This document shows positions 4,594-22,750 of a stretch of 64,000 bases of DNA, in pieces. Position numbers and translations under genes: made by a program. Source of the stretch: a virus; the IMG/VR virus record IMGVR_UViG_3300047472_000134, positions 17,517 through 81,516 of that record. The stretch is one strand, 5' to 3'. The notes under the pieces were generated by a model that saw only the letters and a program-made list of their open reading frames with translations, made no database searches and was not told the origin of the DNA. Numbering within the stretch: position 1 is the stretch's first letter; each line of letters opens with the position of its first letter.

Positions 4594-4915
4594 GACCCTG
4601 ACCCTCGCCCAGGATCTGATCCGCGATCCTCGCAAGTGGACCAAGGGCTACTTCGCTCGCAATGAGCGGGGAGCCATGGTCGAGGCCAACTCGCTGAACG
4701 CCAAGTGCTGGTGCGCCGTTGGTGCGGTGCTGAAGGTCTCGAACTACAGCCCCTATCTGGGGCTCAGCAACAACAGGGTGATCCGGCTGCTGAGCCAGGC
4801 CAGCAATGACGTGATCGTCCCTCATTTCAACGACAATCCCGACGTCACCCATGACGACATCATGGCGATGTTCAACCGTGCGAAAGGCCTGGCCCGTGAG
4901 CAACAAGCTGCTTGA
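4577..4915 (+). CDS. DUF6197-like protein, paralogue 2
   Basis: This 112-residue protein has the same layout as its neighbours: LIRDPRKWTKGYFAR, then CWCAVGAV, then FNDNPDVTHDDIMAMFNRAKGLA. I chose TTG 4577 because GGGAG lies about 8 bp upstream and no ATG or GTG fits the conserved N-terminus. It overlaps paralogue 1 by 17 bp. The core SLGA of paralogue 1 is AVGA here, so the copies have diverged considerably. Confidence 0.7.
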   Translation: MQTPLETLTLAQDLIRDPRKWTKGYFARNERGAMVEANSLNAKCWCAVGAVLKVSNYSPYLGLSNNRVIRLLSQASNDVIVPHFNDNPDVTHDDIMAMFNRAKGLAREQQAA

Positions 4916-5222
4916 ACTGATAACCGCCGGTCAGGAGCTGATCCGTGATCCTGCCCACTGGACCCAGGGCATCTATGCCCGCAACTCGGCCGGCGAAGCT
5001 GTCGGCATGCTGTCTGATCGCGCTTTTTGCTTCTGCAGCATCGGTGCTCTGCACCGTGCTCAACATAATCTCGATCTTGAATACGAACTGATCGACCAAG
5101 CGCACGAGATTCTGGACAAGGCCACCGGCGAGATCGAGAGCGTGGTCAAGGCGAACGACAGCAACTCGCACGACTATGTCATGGGCATGTGGGACAGGGC
5201 GAAGGAGCTGGCCAGTGCCTGA
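4896..5222 (+). CDS. DUF6197-like protein, paralogue 3
   Basis: This 108-residue protein has ELIRDPAHWTQGIYARN, then FCFCSIGALHRA, then a shortened ending NDSNSHDYVMGMWDRAKELA. The GTG 4896 start overlaps paralogue 2 by 20 bp. The neighbour at 5215 again begins with GTG inside its last codons. Confidence 0.7.
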   Translation: MSNKLLELITAGQELIRDPAHWTQGIYARNSAGEAVGMLSDRAFCFCSIGALHRAQHNLDLEYELIDQAHEILDKATGEIESVVKANDSNSHDYVMGMWDRAKELASA

Positions 5223-5472
5223 CATCGAAATCTCCATCGACGTCGACATCACCGCCGGGATCGCATTCTGGGTCGATCCAGAACACTGGCTCGAGCTCGA
5301 TGAAGCAGGGAAGCGAGCCCACATCGCTGGCGTGATCGACGCCATCGCAGGGGACATGGCGAACGACGTGATCCGCTTCCGGGCCGGCAACCTGTCGGCC
5401 TCCATCACCGGACCAATCCAAGACACGATCTCCCTCGACGAGGTGCAGATCTATGATCCGAGGGAAACATGA
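5215..5472 (+). CDS. Unknown small acidic protein
   Basis: This 85-residue protein is rich in Asp and Ile (PDIEISIDVDITAG at its N-terminus). GTG 5215 overlaps the stop of the upstream paralogue. It is not part of the DUF6197-like family. Function is unknown. Confidence 0.65.
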   Translation: MPDIEISIDVDITAGIAFWVDPEHWLELDEAGKRAHIAGVIDAIAGDMANDVIRFRAGNLSASITGPIQDTISLDEVQIYDPRET

Positions 5473-5726
5473 ACCAGAGAATGACCTTCAACACTGGCCG
5501 GCTCTACACAGCGCTCGGCCAGGTGATCACGTTCGAGAAGCACGACGATCACGTCCTGTTCAAGGACCACAGCCGCCTGATCTGCGGCCGGATCGACGAT
5601 GTCCCTCCCCTGGGTGTCGAGATCCCGAAGTGGGTGATGAGCCACTACGACAAGAACAACTATCGCATGTCGACCGAGGCCATCGGCCTCGACCAGTCGG
5701 ACACGATCCACAACGTGAGGCTCTAG
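5469..5726 (+). CDS. Unknown small protein
   Basis: This 85-residue protein begins MNQRMTFNTGRLYTALGQVI and has alternating beta-like segments. Its ATG overlaps the stop of the preceding gene (ATGA) and its own stop meets the stop of a leftward gene tail to tail. Confidence 0.65.
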   Translation: MNQRMTFNTGRLYTALGQVITFEKHDDHVLFKDHSRLICGRIDDVPPLGVEIPKWVMSHYDKNNYRMSTEAIGLDQSDTIHNVRL

Positions 5727-5983
5727 CGGGGCAACTGACCCAAGATCCACTTGTTGCCTAGTTTGTTGTTGCAGGATCTGCAGCGCAATCGAGACGTGAG
5801 CGATCCAAGGTAGGCACCCTTGCCATACCTCCGAGCCAGATCCCAGCGATCGAGCCACGCTTCACGCTCACACTTGGGGCAGCTGACCCCAATCGCCTGA
5901 TACTCCGGGACATCGTCGAATGTGACGTGAATGGGCTCCTTGATTGGACCCAGATACGTGATGTCGCCTGACCGCTGTCTCAT
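5723..5983 (-). CDS. Zinc-finger protein on the opposite strand
   Basis: This 86-residue protein is encoded leftwards inside a rightward block. It has CPKC and CRSC pairs (about residues 43-46 and 69-72) that should bind one zinc, with a WLDRWDLARRYG segment between them. I recall similar small proteins from rhizobial genomes. I chose ATG 5983 because the upstream part of the open frame is antisense to the gene at 6020 and is not protein-like. DNA or RNA binding is plausible but unproven. Confidence 0.65.
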   Translation of the reverse strand: MRQRSGDITYLGPIKEPIHVTFDDVPEYQAIGVSCPKCEREAWLDRWDLARRYGKGAYLGSLTSRLRCRSCNNKLGNKWILGQLPR

Positions 5984-6019
5984 CGTTCTTATTTCGTTCA
6001 CGCAATCGAAAGAGTCAAT

Positions 6020-6415
6020 ATGACCGATTTCGTCAAAAGCTCGGGGTGCATCTTCACCGATCTCGAACTGACGCCGCCTCTTACCCTGTCCTACAAGAAC
6101 TGGAAGGGTGAAGTGGCCGACCGCATGATCATGCCGACAACCGTTTGGTTCGGGACGACCGAATGGCACCCCAACCCACAATGGTTCCTCAAAGGCACGG
6201 ACCTGGAGAAGCGTGAGGAGCGAGATTTCGCGATCGCTGACTTCGGGGCGAGCAAGGACCAGCTCATCGAACAGATGGCCGGCGCCCTCAACTTCATCCT
6301 GGCCTTCTACGAACCGGGCCAGAGCTACCTGGACACCAACGCATGGACCAGAGCCGAGGCCGGTGGCCGCAAAGCTTTGGCGGACGCGAAAGCTGCGGGG
6401 TACTTCCGTGCCTGA
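6020..6415 (+). CDS. Unknown phage protein
   Basis: This 131-residue protein has a beta-rich N-terminal half with WFGTTEWHPNPQWFL, a pattern I recognise from tailed-phage hypotheticals. A helical C-terminal half follows, with LNFILAFYEPG. Its start faces the leftward zinc-finger gene across 36 bp, so two divergent promoters or read-through are needed. Function is unknown. Confidence 0.7.
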   Translation: MTDFVKSSGCIFTDLELTPPLTLSYKNWKGEVADRMIMPTTVWFGTTEWHPNPQWFLKGTDLEKREERDFAIADFGASKDQLIEQMAGALNFILAFYEPGQSYLDTNAWTRAEAGGRKALADAKAAGYFRA

Positions 6416-6515
6416 CGACGACTTCCCCTACCCCTACGACCTCAACGAGTTCGACGATGATGAAGACATCGACGAGCTGATCAGGAGCCTGAACCGTGAC
6501 CATGACCCCGCTTGA
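6408..6515 (+). CDS. Very small acidic peptide
   Basis: A 35-residue frame opens with GTG 6408 inside the last codons of the upstream gene and ends 20 bp inside the next gene. About a third of its residues are Asp or Glu (MPDDDFPYPYD, then DDDEDIDE). The overlaps on both sides support translation. A DNA-mimic role would be speculation. Confidence 0.5.
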   Translation: MPDDDFPYPYDLNEFDDDEDIDELIRSLNRDHDPA

Positions 6516-6831
6516 AGTTCTCGTCGCCGGCCGTGACTTGCTGTCGGACCCTGACCGGTGGACGCAGCGTGCCCTTGCCCGAGACAAGAAGGGCGAAGCC
6601 ACGGACAATCCCTGGGACGCGAAGGCCACTTGCTTCTGCTCATTAGGCGCGGTCCACAAGGTGCTGGGCTCTGGTGAACTCGAGCTCAAGTTCGAGGTGA
6701 AGCAATACCTGTCACAGGCGGCTCCAACCCACAGTATCGTCCCCTACAACGACAACCACACTCACGCCGAGGTGCTTGCCGTCTGGGACGAGGCAATTAA
6801 GGCCGCGACCGCCGATGCACGTCACATCTGA
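6496..6831 (+). CDS. DUF6197-like protein, paralogue 4
   Basis: This 111-residue protein has DLLSDPDRWTQRALARDKKG, then CFCSLGAVHK, then VPYNDNHTHAEVLAVWDEAIKAA. It is the dispersed member of the four-copy family, separated from the tandem array by about 1.3 kb. GTG 6496 overlaps the preceding small frame. Family function is unknown. Confidence 0.72.
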   Translation: MTMTPLEVLVAGRDLLSDPDRWTQRALARDKKGEATDNPWDAKATCFCSLGAVHKVLGSGELELKFEVKQYLSQAAPTHSIVPYNDNHTHAEVLAVWDEAIKAATADARHI

Positions 6832-7138
6832 CGGGACAGCGTTCGGCCAGGTCGATCCCGGTCTCCTAGCCGAAACCCGCCAGCAGCAGAGCCTCTTCAA
6901 CACGGAGATGCTCAAGTACCGGGTCCGCGACGGACAGAAGCAACTGTCCATCGCCTTTCACACCAAGACCAGCATGCCGGCCATCTTCCTCGCCGCCGGC
7001 ACGTATCCGGGCCTCGCATCGATCGAGGTCCATTCGAAGAGCTTCGTCACTGTCCACACACCTTACCGGACACCTGAAGACGTGAAGCTGATGCGGAGCC
7101 ACTTCCGCGATCTCTGGCAAATGACCAACACCCTCTAA
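6815..7138 (+). CDS. Unknown protein
   Basis: This 107-residue protein starts at ATG 6815, inside the end of DUF6197-like paralogue 4. Its middle is beta-rich (KQLSIAFHTKTSMPAIFLAAG) and its end helical. No family is recognised. Confidence 0.65.
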   Translation: MHVTSDGTAFGQVDPGLLAETRQQQSLFNTEMLKYRVRDGQKQLSIAFHTKTSMPAIFLAAGTYPGLASIEVHSKSFVTVHTPYRTPEDVKLMRSHFRDLWQMTNTL

Positions 7139-11300: not shown

Positions 11301-11302
11301 AC

Positions 11303-11334
11303 TGCGTTGACGCACGTTAACGCACATCAACGCA
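11303..11334. repeat. Partition-site-like palindrome array 1
   Basis: An inverted repeat with outer arms TGCGTTGA (11303-11310) and TCAACGCA (11327-11334) surrounds a GTTAAC centre (CGCACGTTAACGCAC). Related palindromes lie at 11558, 11597 and 13512, all around the parA operon. Clusters of such sites are typical of centromeres bound by a ParA partner protein. Confidence 0.65.
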
Positions 11335-11343
11335 GGAACATTA

Positions 11344-11559
11344 ATGAGCAGAAAGATTACCTCGGTCATCGGACCAGAACCGATGCGAACAGGCGAAGAT
11401 CCCGATTTCTACTCGGTCGGGCGTAACGACGTCACCAAGATCGATGAGTGGGAGCAGAATCTCGGCTCCTACGCCATCATCTGGTTTGAGGTCTACACCT
11501 CAAAAGGCCTGCTGGCGAAGATGAACGCGATGCATGTCGCCGCTGTGCGTTATGACTGA
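11344..11559 (+). CDS. Unknown protein between partition-site repeats
   Basis: This 71-residue protein begins MSRKITSVIGPEPMRTGEDP. It lies between two blocks of GTTAAC palindromes and its stop overlaps the second block. No family is recognised; position suggests it could belong to the partition locus. Confidence 0.6.
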   Translation: MSRKITSVIGPEPMRTGEDPDFYSVGRNDVTKIDEWEQNLGSYAIIWFEVYTSKGLLAKMNAMHVAAVRYD

Positions 11560-11611
11560 CGCACGTTAACGCATGACGCATTGTGCAGCATTTTGAGGCA
11601 TGTTAACGTCC
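11545..11611. repeat. Partition-site-like palindrome array 2 and promoter region
   Basis: This block contains GACGCACGTTAACGCA (11558-11573), GCATGACGCATTGTGCAGC and GGCATGTTAACGTCC (11597-11611). A TTGACA hexamer follows at 11621-11626, 41 bp before the parA ATG, so a protein bound here would cover or flank the parA promoter. Autoregulation of a par operon from its own centromere sites is the expected arrangement. Confidence 0.65.
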
Positions 11612-11666: not shown

Positions 11667-12341
11667 ATGCCCGTAATTACGGTAGCGAACCCCAAGGGTG
11701 GGGCAGGGAAGTCGACCACGACTCTCGTCCTCGCCTCCACCCTGGCCTCCCGCGGCGCCAGTGTCATCATCCTGGACTGTGATCCGAACCAACCCATCAC
11801 TGGATGGAGGGGAGGGGACTCAAAGAGCAAGGTCATCGTCGATGGCGACGTCAACGAGAGCAACGTCACATCGAAGCTCGACCAATACCGGAAGGAATAC
11901 CAGTTCGTGTTCGTCGATCTCGAGGGCACAGCCAGCCGGTTGATGTCGCGGGCTCTGGCTCGAGCCAACTTGGCCGTCATTCCGATCCAAGCCAGCCCGA
12001 CAGATGCAGAGCTGGCTGCGAAAGCTATTCGCCTGATCCAGGAAGAGGAGCAGGCATTCGAGAAGACGATCCCGTATCGGATCCTCTTCACCCGCACGAG
12101 CCCAGTCATCGCGACCAAGCTAGAGAAAGCCATCCTCGCCCAATTGAAGGGAGGGGAGGTGCCAACCTTCAGCAACCACCTGAATGAGCGTGCGGCTTAC
12201 AAGTCGCTCTTCTATCACCAGCTGGATCTGGACGAACTGGACTCGAATGAAGTTAATGGCCTCCCGCAGGCTAGAGAAAATGCACTGCGCCTGGCTGAAG
12301 AGCTCATCGAGCTGGTCGTGCAGAAGAAAGAAGCAGCATGA
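11667..12341 (+). CDS. parA: ParA-type partition ATPase
   Basis: This 224-residue protein has the deviant Walker A motif KGGAGKST (residues 10-17), the switch segment LDCDPNQP (about 35-42) and FVDLEGTAS as Walker B. It belongs to the short ParA class (VirC1/ParF-like, no N-terminal HTH), which positions plasmid copies by ATP-driven gradients on the nucleoid. The partner gene overlaps its stop by 4 bp. Flanking palindromes complete a plasmid-type partition locus. The phage may therefore be kept as a low-copy plasmid during lysogeny; that is inference from family and context. Confidence 0.88.
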
Positions 12342-12625
12342 CCGGCAAGAACCTTGGCTTCGGCCGTCTCGCAGAAATCAAGCCAGAGGCCGATGAGCCG
12401 GCGCCGATCCCTGACCGGAAGGTCGACGAAGTGGCCGAGAAGCATGGTTTCGTCAGCCGCGAGCCGGTCCAGAAAATTGTCCGCCGGAAAGAAGCGGAGC
12501 CTAGTGGGAACCTGAACATCCGCCCGCCGCTCTCGACCTACAATCGGTTCGTCCAGTGGGCGATCGACAACAACCTCAGCTACCCGCAGGCTCTGAAGGA
12601 GCTGATGGATAGGGCCAAAATCTGA
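12338..12625 (+). CDS. Ribbon-helix-helix partition partner (ParG/Omega-like)
   Basis: This 95-residue protein has a flexible, charged N-terminal half and a C-terminal [21 protein letters not shown] segment, followed by a helix, that fits a ribbon-helix-helix DNA-binding fold. The N-terminal tail of such proteins stimulates the ParA ATPase. It overlaps parA by 4 bp (ATGA) and should bind the GTTAAC palindromes on either side of the operon. The assignment rests on fold pattern and position. Confidence 0.72.
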
Positions 12626-13506
12626 TGCCTCAAGAGTTTCAATCTCACATCACCTTCAGATGCCCCAAGTGTCGTGAAGTCTCGTCTGGTCCCGTGACCA
12701 TCCCAGAACCGGACTGGTCGGCCGCAGAGGAAATGTCAGACCTCAACTCCGAAGGCCAGATCTCTATCCAGTGCCAGTGGTGTGACACTGCTTACGATGC
12801 CTATGTCATAAACAACGCCGGTTCAGTATCAATTACGTTGATCGATTTTGAAGAGGTCGTGGTCGACGCGGACCATGCCTTTTACTCTTTCGATGAGGAC
12901 TGGCCTGAACCTGAACTACCAACTGACCCTGCGGATATTTTCGAGGACCTTCAGTCGGAAGTTACTCATTGGCTGAAGCAGCATGGCAATGGCGACGGAG
13001 GTGCTTTGATCAACCGAATGCTCTTTGCCTCGCTATTCAGTGGCCTCGAGTCATTCCTCAGCGATACTTTGATCAAAGCCGTCACAGAGCGTCCCGAGGC
13101 TCTCGCCAATCTGCTTGAGCACGACAAAGACATCCTGACCGAGAAATTCACACTCCTTGAGATATCTAAACACCCCAACCTAGTGGTTGACACAGTAACA
13201 ACCCATTTGCGGGAAATTCTCTACCACAATCTACCCAAGGTGAACGCTCTCTACCGCATTGCACTAGGCATTGACTTCTTCAAAATGCTTGACAAGGAGG
13301 AGGTCAAAACGCTCAACAACGCGGTCCAGCTTCGCCATCACTGCGTTCACCGCAATGGCAAAGACATCGACGGAAATCGCCTTGATGTTTTCACGCCAGA
13401 ATATGTCTCATCGATCCTCGATCTCACAACTTGGCTGGTCAGAAAACTAGATGCTGCAGTGAGCGGGAAGCGACTCATTATAGACGATGACGACCTCCCC
13501 TTTTGA
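12625..13506 (+). CDS. Zinc-ribbon + HEPN-like protein
   Basis: This 293-residue protein has an N-terminal zinc ribbon (CPKC at about 13-16 and CQWC at about 50-53). An acidic linker follows, then a helical C-terminal domain with R237-HHCV-H242 followed by RNGKD. R-x4-H is the catalytic signature of HEPN ribonucleases, which act in toxin-antitoxin, abortive infection and CRISPR effectors. Its start shares one base with the stop of the partition partner, so it is translated with ParA. Codon use looks less GC-biased than its neighbours. It could be an RNase guarding the phage-plasmid, an inactive HEPN binding protein, or a superinfection-exclusion factor. Confidence 0.68.
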   Translation: MPQEFQSHITFRCPKCREVSSGPVTIPEPDWSAAEEMSDLNSEGQISIQCQWCDTAYDAYVINNAGSVSITLIDFEEVVVDADHAFYSFDEDWPEPELPTDPADIFEDLQSEVTHWLKQHGNGDGGALINRMLFASLFSGLESFLSDTLIKAVTERPEALANLLEHDKDILTEKFTLLEISKHPNLVVDTVTTHLREILYHNLPKVNALYRIALGIDFFKMLDKEEVKTLNNAVQLRHHCVHRNGKDIDGNRLDVFTPEYVSSILDLTTWLVRKLDAAVSGKRLIIDDDDLPF

Positions 13507-13530
13507 CGCATCTGCGTTAACGCACGTCAT
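13505..13530. repeat. Partition-site-like palindrome 3
   Basis: The exact 12-bp palindrome TGCGTTAACGCA (13512-13523) is framed by GACG and CGTC arms. It begins on the stop codon of the HEPN gene and closes the parA-rhh-hepn block, matching the sites at 11.3 and 11.56 kb. Confidence 0.65.
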
Positions 13531-13537
13531 TCAATCA

Positions 13538-13568
13538 AAGCCTCGGCCCCGCCGGGGCTTTTTCTTTT
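13538..13568 (+). terminator. Terminator of the partition operon
   Basis: A GC-rich hairpin (AAGCC...GGCTT with an inner GCCCC/GGGGC) is followed by TTTTTCTTTT. It lies after the HEPN gene and separates the partition locus from the genes to the right. Confidence 0.75.
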
Positions 13569-16217: not shown

Positions 16218-17078
16218 ATGAAGAAATTCTTCCTCGCAGCCGCTTTTGCGCTGCTCGCAATTCCCGCCAATGCCGCCGCAATTCGCCTCTGCACTGGCGC
16301 CGCCGACCAGCCCTACGCCGCGGCTGGCGAACTCATCAAGGACGAAGCCAAGGGAAACGGCCTGGATGTCGAAGTCGTCAAGGATACTGGTGGTAGCTGG
16401 GGAAACGTCCAGCTCTCTCTCCAGGGTAAGTGCGATGCGATTATCGGCCAGCCTGACGCTCTCGCTTACCTCAAGCGCACCGAGCCGGCGAACGCCGCCA
16501 AGTTCCTGCCGATCGCAGACCTTCACCGTGAATATGCCGCCGCAGTCTGCGGAAAGAATTCGGGCGTTACTGACATCGGGGATCTCGAAAACGACCCGGC
16601 CAAGTATTCCATCGCTCTTGGCGAGCGTGGCTCGGGCGCCTGGTTGATCTGGCAGAACTTCATCTCTGAAGACTCCGACTATTCAGGCGTCCGAACGACA
16701 GCCGAAAGCGGCGATGATGCTCTGTCGGCGGTGGCCAACGACCAGACGACGTGTGCCTTGGTACCAGCCGCTCTCGTCAACTCTGTGATGCGCTCGGCCG
16801 ACGAGCTGTACAGCGACAACCTGATCCTCGTGGGCGTCAACGACAAGGACTTCGACGACGCTCCTGATGCCCAGGGCAAGCCACTCTACACCTACAGCAA
16901 GATCCCCTCGGGCACTTACCCGAAGCTGCAGGGCTGGTTCAGCGGCAAGGCGACAATCAGCTGGCTCGCCAAGGTCTACGTCAACAAGGACACGCTGACC
17001 GACCAGAACGTCCGAAAGGCTTTGATCCGCTCGGTCATGAAGGCCCGCCAGAACGTCGTCTCCAACTTCGGCTCCTAA
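16218..17078 (+). CDS. Exported TAXI-type solute-binding protein
   Basis: This 286-residue protein has a clean signal peptide (MKKFFLAAAFALLAIPANAA). The mature part resembles the TAXI branch of periplasmic solute-binding proteins that feed TRAP transporters: IRLCTGAADQPYAAAGELI at the N-terminus, CDAIIGQPDAL, then LGERGSGAWLIWQNF. Family members bind small organic acids such as glutamate. No transporter membrane genes are present, so it would have to use host partners or act as a soluble binder. It is a single-gene unit with a terminator on each side and a GAGAGTA inverted repeat in front, which marks it as cargo expressed independently. Such a gene is rare in phages. Confidence 0.8.
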   Translation: MKKFFLAAAFALLAIPANAAAIRLCTGAADQPYAAAGELIKDEAKGNGLDVEVVKDTGGSWGNVQLSLQGKCDAIIGQPDALAYLKRTEPANAAKFLPIADLHREYAAAVCGKNSGVTDIGDLENDPAKYSIALGERGSGAWLIWQNFISEDSDYSGVRTTAESGDDALSAVANDQTTCALVPAALVNSVMRSADELYSDNLILVGVNDKDFDDAPDAQGKPLYTYSKIPSGTYPKLQGWFSGKATISWLAKVYVNKDTLTDQNVRKALIRSVMKARQNVVSNFGS

Positions 17079-22012: not shown

Positions 22013-22750
22013 ATGAACTTCAGCCTGACGAAAATCAGCAGAAATCAAAAGCTTGGCCCTATGCCGGCCGCAACCTCAGCTCGATCAACCTGCCCGACCT
22101 CTTGCCCACTTAAAGGGGCAGGCGGCTGCTACGCCGAGCATGGCCCAATGGCCATATTCTGGGGCAAGGTTGATCGTGGTGAGGCTGGCACTAACTTTGA
22201 CGTCTTTGTTAAGGAAGTCGAGCAGCTGCCACGTCGCCAAATGTGGCGCTACGGTCAGGCTGGAGACCTTCCTGGCGAAGGAGATTTGATCGACCGCGAG
22301 CAGATGTTAAGACTCGCAAAAGCAAACCGTGGTAGACCTGTCATAGCTTTCACGCATAAGCCTATAACAGACGAAAACCTTGAGACACTGCAGCTCGCCC
22401 AGAGGTTAGGTTTCAGTGTCAACTTGTCGGCGAATAACGTTGATCACGCCGATGAACTGGCTGTCCACGGACTGAATGTTGTGGTTGTTTTGCCTAGTGA
22501 GTACGAAAAGCTTTCATCGGAAACGATGACAGAGTATCGGGCTAGATTGAACCAATTACCGAAACGAACACCAGCAGGGCAGAGGATCGCTGTCTGCCCC
22601 GCTACTTACACGGAGACCACATGCCATCAGTGCGGCGTCTGCGCGAGTACCGAGAAGAGGTCAGCTGTCATCGGGTTTCCAGCACACGGGACCAAGAAGC
22701 GACAGGTCTCGACTATGGCCCGAAGGTTAGAACCTGTGCCGGCTGGATAA
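22013..22750 (+). CDS. Cys-rich phage protein (DUF7227/GP88-like)
   Basis: This 245-residue protein has TCPTSCPLKGAGGCYAE near residues 27-43, then MWRYGQAGDLPGEGD, FTHKPIT, NLSANNVDHADELA and VVVLPSEY. A C-terminal CPATY...TCHQCGVC pair and IGFPAHGT follow. I recognise the order from phage proteins of the GP88/DUF7227 group, which are probably metal or iron-sulfur binding; their reaction is unknown. It starts a new unit right after a terminator. Confidence 0.7.
   Translation: MNFSLTKISRNQKLGPMPAATSARSTCPTSCPLKGAGGCYAEHGPMAIFWGKVDRGEAGTNFDVFVKEVEQLPRRQMWRYGQAGDLPGEGDLIDREQMLRLAKANRGRPVIAFTHKPITDENLETLQLAQRLGFSVNLSANNVDHADELAVHGLNVVVVLPSEYEKLSSETMTEYRARLNQLPKRTPAGQRIAVCPATYTETTCHQCGVCASTEKRSAVIGFPAHGTKKRQVSTMARRLEPVPAG

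Follow-up and report, generated by a model that had tools for sequence, protein, structure and literature searches.

A HEPN-type gene as probable mobile cargo at the end of a phage partition operon

A gene for a HEPN-type protein of 293 amino acids (12625-13506, plus strand, ATG to TGA) stands at the end of a partition operon in the window, i.e., the 64,000-nucleotide stretch of viral DNA that was analysed, and comparison with related phages indicates that it has very probably been inserted behind the stop codon of the second partition gene, ahead of the palindromic element and terminator that close the operon. The reading that we favour, with moderate confidence, is that of a mobile single-gene HEPN ribonuclease that has become operon-end cargo and acts as a triggered anti-phage effector, in abortive infection (Abi) or superinfection exclusion. 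The gene has the look of commonplace defence cargo, not of a novel system linked to partition. The operon-end insertion itself is clean and well documented, and it is a single case.

The parA gene, which encodes a partition ATPase of the ParA family (11667-12341, plus strand; NF041546, 2.8e-33; phrog_164, 6.5e-33), is overlapped by the gene of a 95-amino-acid partition partner (12338-12625, plus strand), probably a centromere-binding protein, with the RHH type given tentatively because no family model of Pfam or NCBIfam matches it. Among related phages, parA is 60-86% identical and the partner, which adjoins parA there too, 41-76%. The end of the partner gene and the start of the HEPN reading frame have one base in common (TGATG, position 12625), and the TGA stop of the latter is at the same time the first triplet of a conserved palindromic element of 26 nt, TGACGCATCTGCGTTAACGCACGTCA (13504-13529), which may serve as an operator or a centromere-like site; shuffled sequence gave 0 matches to this element per 64 kb with six or fewer mismatches allowed. 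The preliminary description had thus placed the reading frame correctly behind parA and a small partner, with a one-base overlap and its end at a palindrome, whereas its wording that the protein is fused into the partition operon applies to the adjacency within the operon and not to a protein fusion, which is absent. Inverted and direct related copies of the element lie upstream (CTGCGTTGACGCACGTTAACGCACATCAACGCAG, 11302-11335; D1, D2, I3), and more copies are located directly 5' of parA (11553-11610; D1, I1). A terminator-like stem-loop with a T-run (13537-13561, plus strand) stands at the operon end. Conserved TGACGCA/GTTAACGCA repeats flank the operon on both sides at the three places given; they are common to about 12 related phages and are candidates for a set of centromere or operator sites.

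Related phages with the same parA-partner pair were located by ParA searches. At 11 such loci, the 26-nt element begins at the end of the partner gene, with a gap of -3 to +1 nt, and the stop codon TGA of the partner is often the first triplet of the element; a terminator-like sequence follows directly in L012, L013 and others, and in these two sister phages the sequence 3' of the partner gene is near-identical to the terminator described above. In the window, 878 nt that make up the HEPN gene separate the partner gene from the element, and the HEPN stop codon stands where that of the partner is found in the relatives. Because the same element and terminator follow 878 nt later and the flanks match those of L012 (92% over 73 nt on the right and 77% over 204 nt on the left), the site is empty in the sister phages and filled in this phage. 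Gain of the HEPN gene is also more parsimonious than repeated loss, since all relatives with a recognisable element are empty, out to about 60% ParA identity. The precise pair of empty and filled sites documents the gain of a HEPN gene by a phage partition operon. Past the par terminator, the cargo differs between relatives, by eye a PAPS-reductase-like gene in L012 (5030-5793) and, in L014 (5072-5754), a BrnT/BrnA-like toxin-antitoxin pair; thus this region is variable among the phages.

The composition of the gene also deviates from that of the phage, with a GC content of 0.505 and a GC3 of 0.584, where most genes of the phage have about 0.575 and 0.68-0.81, and a codon fit to the phage of -0.07, as compared with 0.08 to 0.33 for nine of the ten reference genes. 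The unusual codon use is real though not unique, because a reference gene (22013-22750) has an equally low fit. It had been suggested that codon use differs from that of the neighbours and hints at recent gain; all three measures bear out the difference, and the deviating composition and the empty site in related phages both speak for the gain. The reading frame is a genuine gene and not a chance one, because relatives with 56-65% identity exist and strong purifying selection is evident (pN 0.25-0.30, pS near saturation).

The protein is a probable member of the HEPN superfamily, on the basis of a motif and a profile. It consists of an N-terminal beta domain with two CxxC pairs (residues 1-72) and a C-terminal helical HEPN domain (about 102-280) with R237-x4-H242, and the motif R237-H-H-C-V-H242 is present in the translation as first described. 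The Pfam model RiboL-PSP-HEPN (PF18735) matches residues 108-249 with E=6.1e-5 and a score of 23.4 bits, which is below the curated cut-off of 28.4 bits, and the helical domain alone with E=1.7e-5; within the family it recognises 15 of 36 members, the best of them with E=1e-6. A near full-length match was obtained to phrog_29321 (E=3.3e-15), which has no assigned function. In a ten-member alignment of relatives that came from tblastn hits, R237, H238, V241, H242 and R243 are invariant. A larger set of 46 members, in which E142 and H201 are likewise invariant, had partly been selected by the R/H motif, and therefore conservation was retested by profile searches of sampled genomes; R-H-x-x-V/I-H-R was present in all of the distinct full-length, high-scoring relatives found in this way (14/14). 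The proposed conservation of the arginine and the histidine was thus confirmed.

AlphaFold (AF2) models the whole protein with a pLDDT of 94 and the helical domain alone with 95. Foldseek comparisons with the PDB, run for the full-length protein and for the HEPN domain by itself, gave nothing significant, the HEPN toxins 5yep and 7ae9 being low-ranked at E of about 2 (TM to target 0.40-0.48), and the BFVD yielded one unnamed phage protein (prob 1.00, TM 0.45). A PDB sequence search with the family profile returned weak, unrelated matches, and the 293-residue protein has no match in NCBIfam or among the models of PADLOC 2.0. The HEPN assignment of the preliminary description therefore draws its support from the motif and the sub-cut-off PF18735 match and not from the Foldseek comparison. 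A HEPN protein that is inactive or is no RNase, and that serves in regulation or nucleotide binding instead, would accord with this lack of a significant match to solved HEPN RNases and with the existence of inactive members in the superfamily (PMC3710099); however, the catalytic motif, i.e., R, H and the adjacent residues, comprises the most conserved positions of the family, and we regard this alternative as unlikely.

In the model, the N-terminal domain has five strands and bears both Cys pairs (C13-x2-C16 and C50-x2-C53), which supports the earlier view of a zinc-ribbon-like N-terminus. C16, C50 and C53 are retained in 29-30 of the 46 relatives. Because the Cys pairs are not universal and the N-terminus of some subfamilies is different, the HEPN part is the core of the family and the N-terminus its variable part. 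The RiboL-PSP-HEPN family, with an Rx4-6H motif, has been proposed to comprise RNases of biological conflict and defence (Anantharaman et al. 2013, PMC3710099). The protein shares with it this motif and probably, by profile, the helical domain, but it differs by its sub-cut-off score, the lack of an L-PSP fusion and the two-CxxC domain that it has instead at the N-terminus.

The more far-reaching proposal had been that the HEPN gene and DNA segregation are coupled in an undescribed system. The HEPN gene was found in 0 of 47 parA loci, some of which are duplicates, and in 0 of 13 related records, a profile search with no positive control inside the set, the same profile detecting the gene elsewhere. 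Conversely, the par pair occurs in 0 of 73 other loci of the HEPN family and in none of the further profile-found HEPN loci, which have short flanks; at one HEPN locus, on a Serratia plasmid, the opposite strand encodes a distant ParA-like ATPase. A recurrent linkage of parA and HEPN was rejected on the counts for the 47 and the 73 loci, and a partition-coupled system, which would have been a surprise, is unsupported. The general idea is also not undescribed, because a dyad of a ParA/Soj ATPase and the MAE_18760 HEPN, a recurrent pairing, was put forward as a predicted toxin-antitoxin in 2013 (PMC3710099). The locus resembles this dyad in that a HEPN gene adjoins the gene of a ParA-like ATPase, but the HEPN family is another one and the arrangement is one insertion behind a complete par pair. 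A literature search for HEPN proteins in partition operons of phage-plasmids found no papers.

The proposed ParA/Soj-HEPN dyad (PMC3710099), the tight operon and the one-base overlap would be in line with an addiction module, in which a HEPN toxin is neutralised by ParA or the 95-residue partner and kills cells that lose the phage-plasmid. However, parA and its partner occur without the HEPN gene in all related phages found, HEPN relatives occur without the two par genes, no further gene lies between the HEPN gene and the terminator, and the HEPN relatives have no recurrent partner. Because the par genes and the HEPN relatives each occur alone, neither par gene is a dedicated antitoxin, and an addiction module is thus quite improbable. 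A related option is confined to this lineage: our guess is that the par element autoregulates the operon including the HEPN gene, which would thereby have come under this control by its insertion and might act as a device for exclusion or addiction that senses partition. If the repressor bound to the repeats were lost, whether because the phage plasmid disappears, its copy number is out of balance or an incoming related phage that carries these repeats titrates the repressor, HEPN levels would then rise and RNA would be cleaved. We consider such a device very unlikely.

A gene for RtcB is encoded by the same phage (18586-19977; PF01139, 9e-30), as had been stated, and a role in the repair of RNA cut by the HEPN protein had been envisaged for it. 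Two sister phages without the HEPN gene in their records have a counterpart with 78% identity, over the part present there; RtcB thus belongs to the phage group and is no partner of HEPN, and a dedicated partnership was rejected on the basis of these sister records. The presence of RtcB in the same phage, and the fact that HEPN proteins are also known in RNA processing (PMC3710099), could suggest an RNase that serves the phage itself, by degradation of host RNA during lytic growth or by processing of phage RNA, in which case RtcB would reseal selected RNAs. Such a function is improbable, as the sisters keep RtcB while their available records are without HEPN, and plasmids and chromosomes house most of the HEPN relatives.

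The distribution of the family agrees with the reading as mobile defence cargo. The nearest relatives are found in Rhizobium rhizophilum and Hoeflea (62-65% identity) and in Agrobacterium plasmids of 50-69 kb and the record MT838835 (56-60%), many further relatives have 22-45% identity, and the family as a whole is found on plasmids, chromosomes and phages. Its occurrence is sporadic, with 9 of 299 Rhizobiaceae, truncated copies included, and 7 of 385 in the class. The GC content of the gene is 0.47-0.50 in five close relatives as compared with 0.55-0.65 for the locus, and 0.553 in a sixth, near the locus mean of 0.567. Among 89 neighbouring proteins of the family, no Pfam family is present more than three times and no neighbour is recurrent; they include defence-type families (LmuB, RmrA, SIR2, a pPIWI-associated nuclease and capP), many neighbours are ordinary, non-defence genes, and around the two nearest chromosomal relatives neither a defence nor a phage context is obvious. 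Because the spread is sporadic, the GC content low, the neighbours variable and the gene under purifying selection, its profile is that of mobile single-gene cargo. A single-sequence scan of viral contigs and a megablast against phages revealed no relatives.

In four Agrobacterium plasmids of 50-69 kb (L002-L005, about 4856-6846), a ligD-type DNA ligase gene is followed by the HEPN gene, and in L005 a TIR-domain gene has entered beside it. The record MT838835.1 (L006), which is labelled 'Bacteriophage sp.', has the order ligD-HEPN-DUF932-like, as in the Agrobacterium plasmids; it probably represents part of a plasmid and not a phage. The family is unnamed, widespread and zinc-ribbon-bearing, chiefly in Alphaproteobacteria, and merits a defence screen.

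According to the favoured reading, a mobile single-gene HEPN ribonuclease would have landed as cargo after the second par gene and before the par element and terminator. The gene probably rides on the par transcript, because the genes overlap, no promoter-like site was recognised in the HEPN gene region and the terminator follows the HEPN gene, so that synthesis of the protein would coincide with maintenance of the phage genome in the host, putatively as a plasmid-like prophage. No integrase (PF00589) was found in the 81.5-kb record, which is compatible with such a state and no proof of it. The HEPN domain would dimerise and cleave RNA via R237 and H242, and the zinc-ribbon-like domain may either silence the protein or respond to a trigger. 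The likeliest trigger would be a product of a second infecting phage, with abortive infection or superinfection exclusion as the outcome.

Solo HEPN proteins in mobile elements are already a known kind, of which the present gene is one more. Tha, an S. aureus prophage protein of 301 residues, has a C-terminal HEPN domain with RX4H and has been shown to be an RNase triggered by phage; its H270A mutation abolishes defence (PMC11087260). Both are single genes for about 300 residues, borne by a prophage, putatively so in the present case, with an RX4H-containing HEPN domain at the C-terminus and an N-terminus of other nature; however, the two-CxxC domain is absent from the Tha sequence, the gene location differs, and no sequence homology is detectable (hhalign probability 0.5%). 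Homology to Tha was thus rejected, and the comparison is a functional one only.

The same phage also carries a gene (16218-17078, plus strand) whose product begins in the manner of a signal peptide and contains an NMT1-like (TAXI-type) solute-binding domain (PF16868, 1.3e-9), and a periplasmic binding protein is unusual cargo for a phage.
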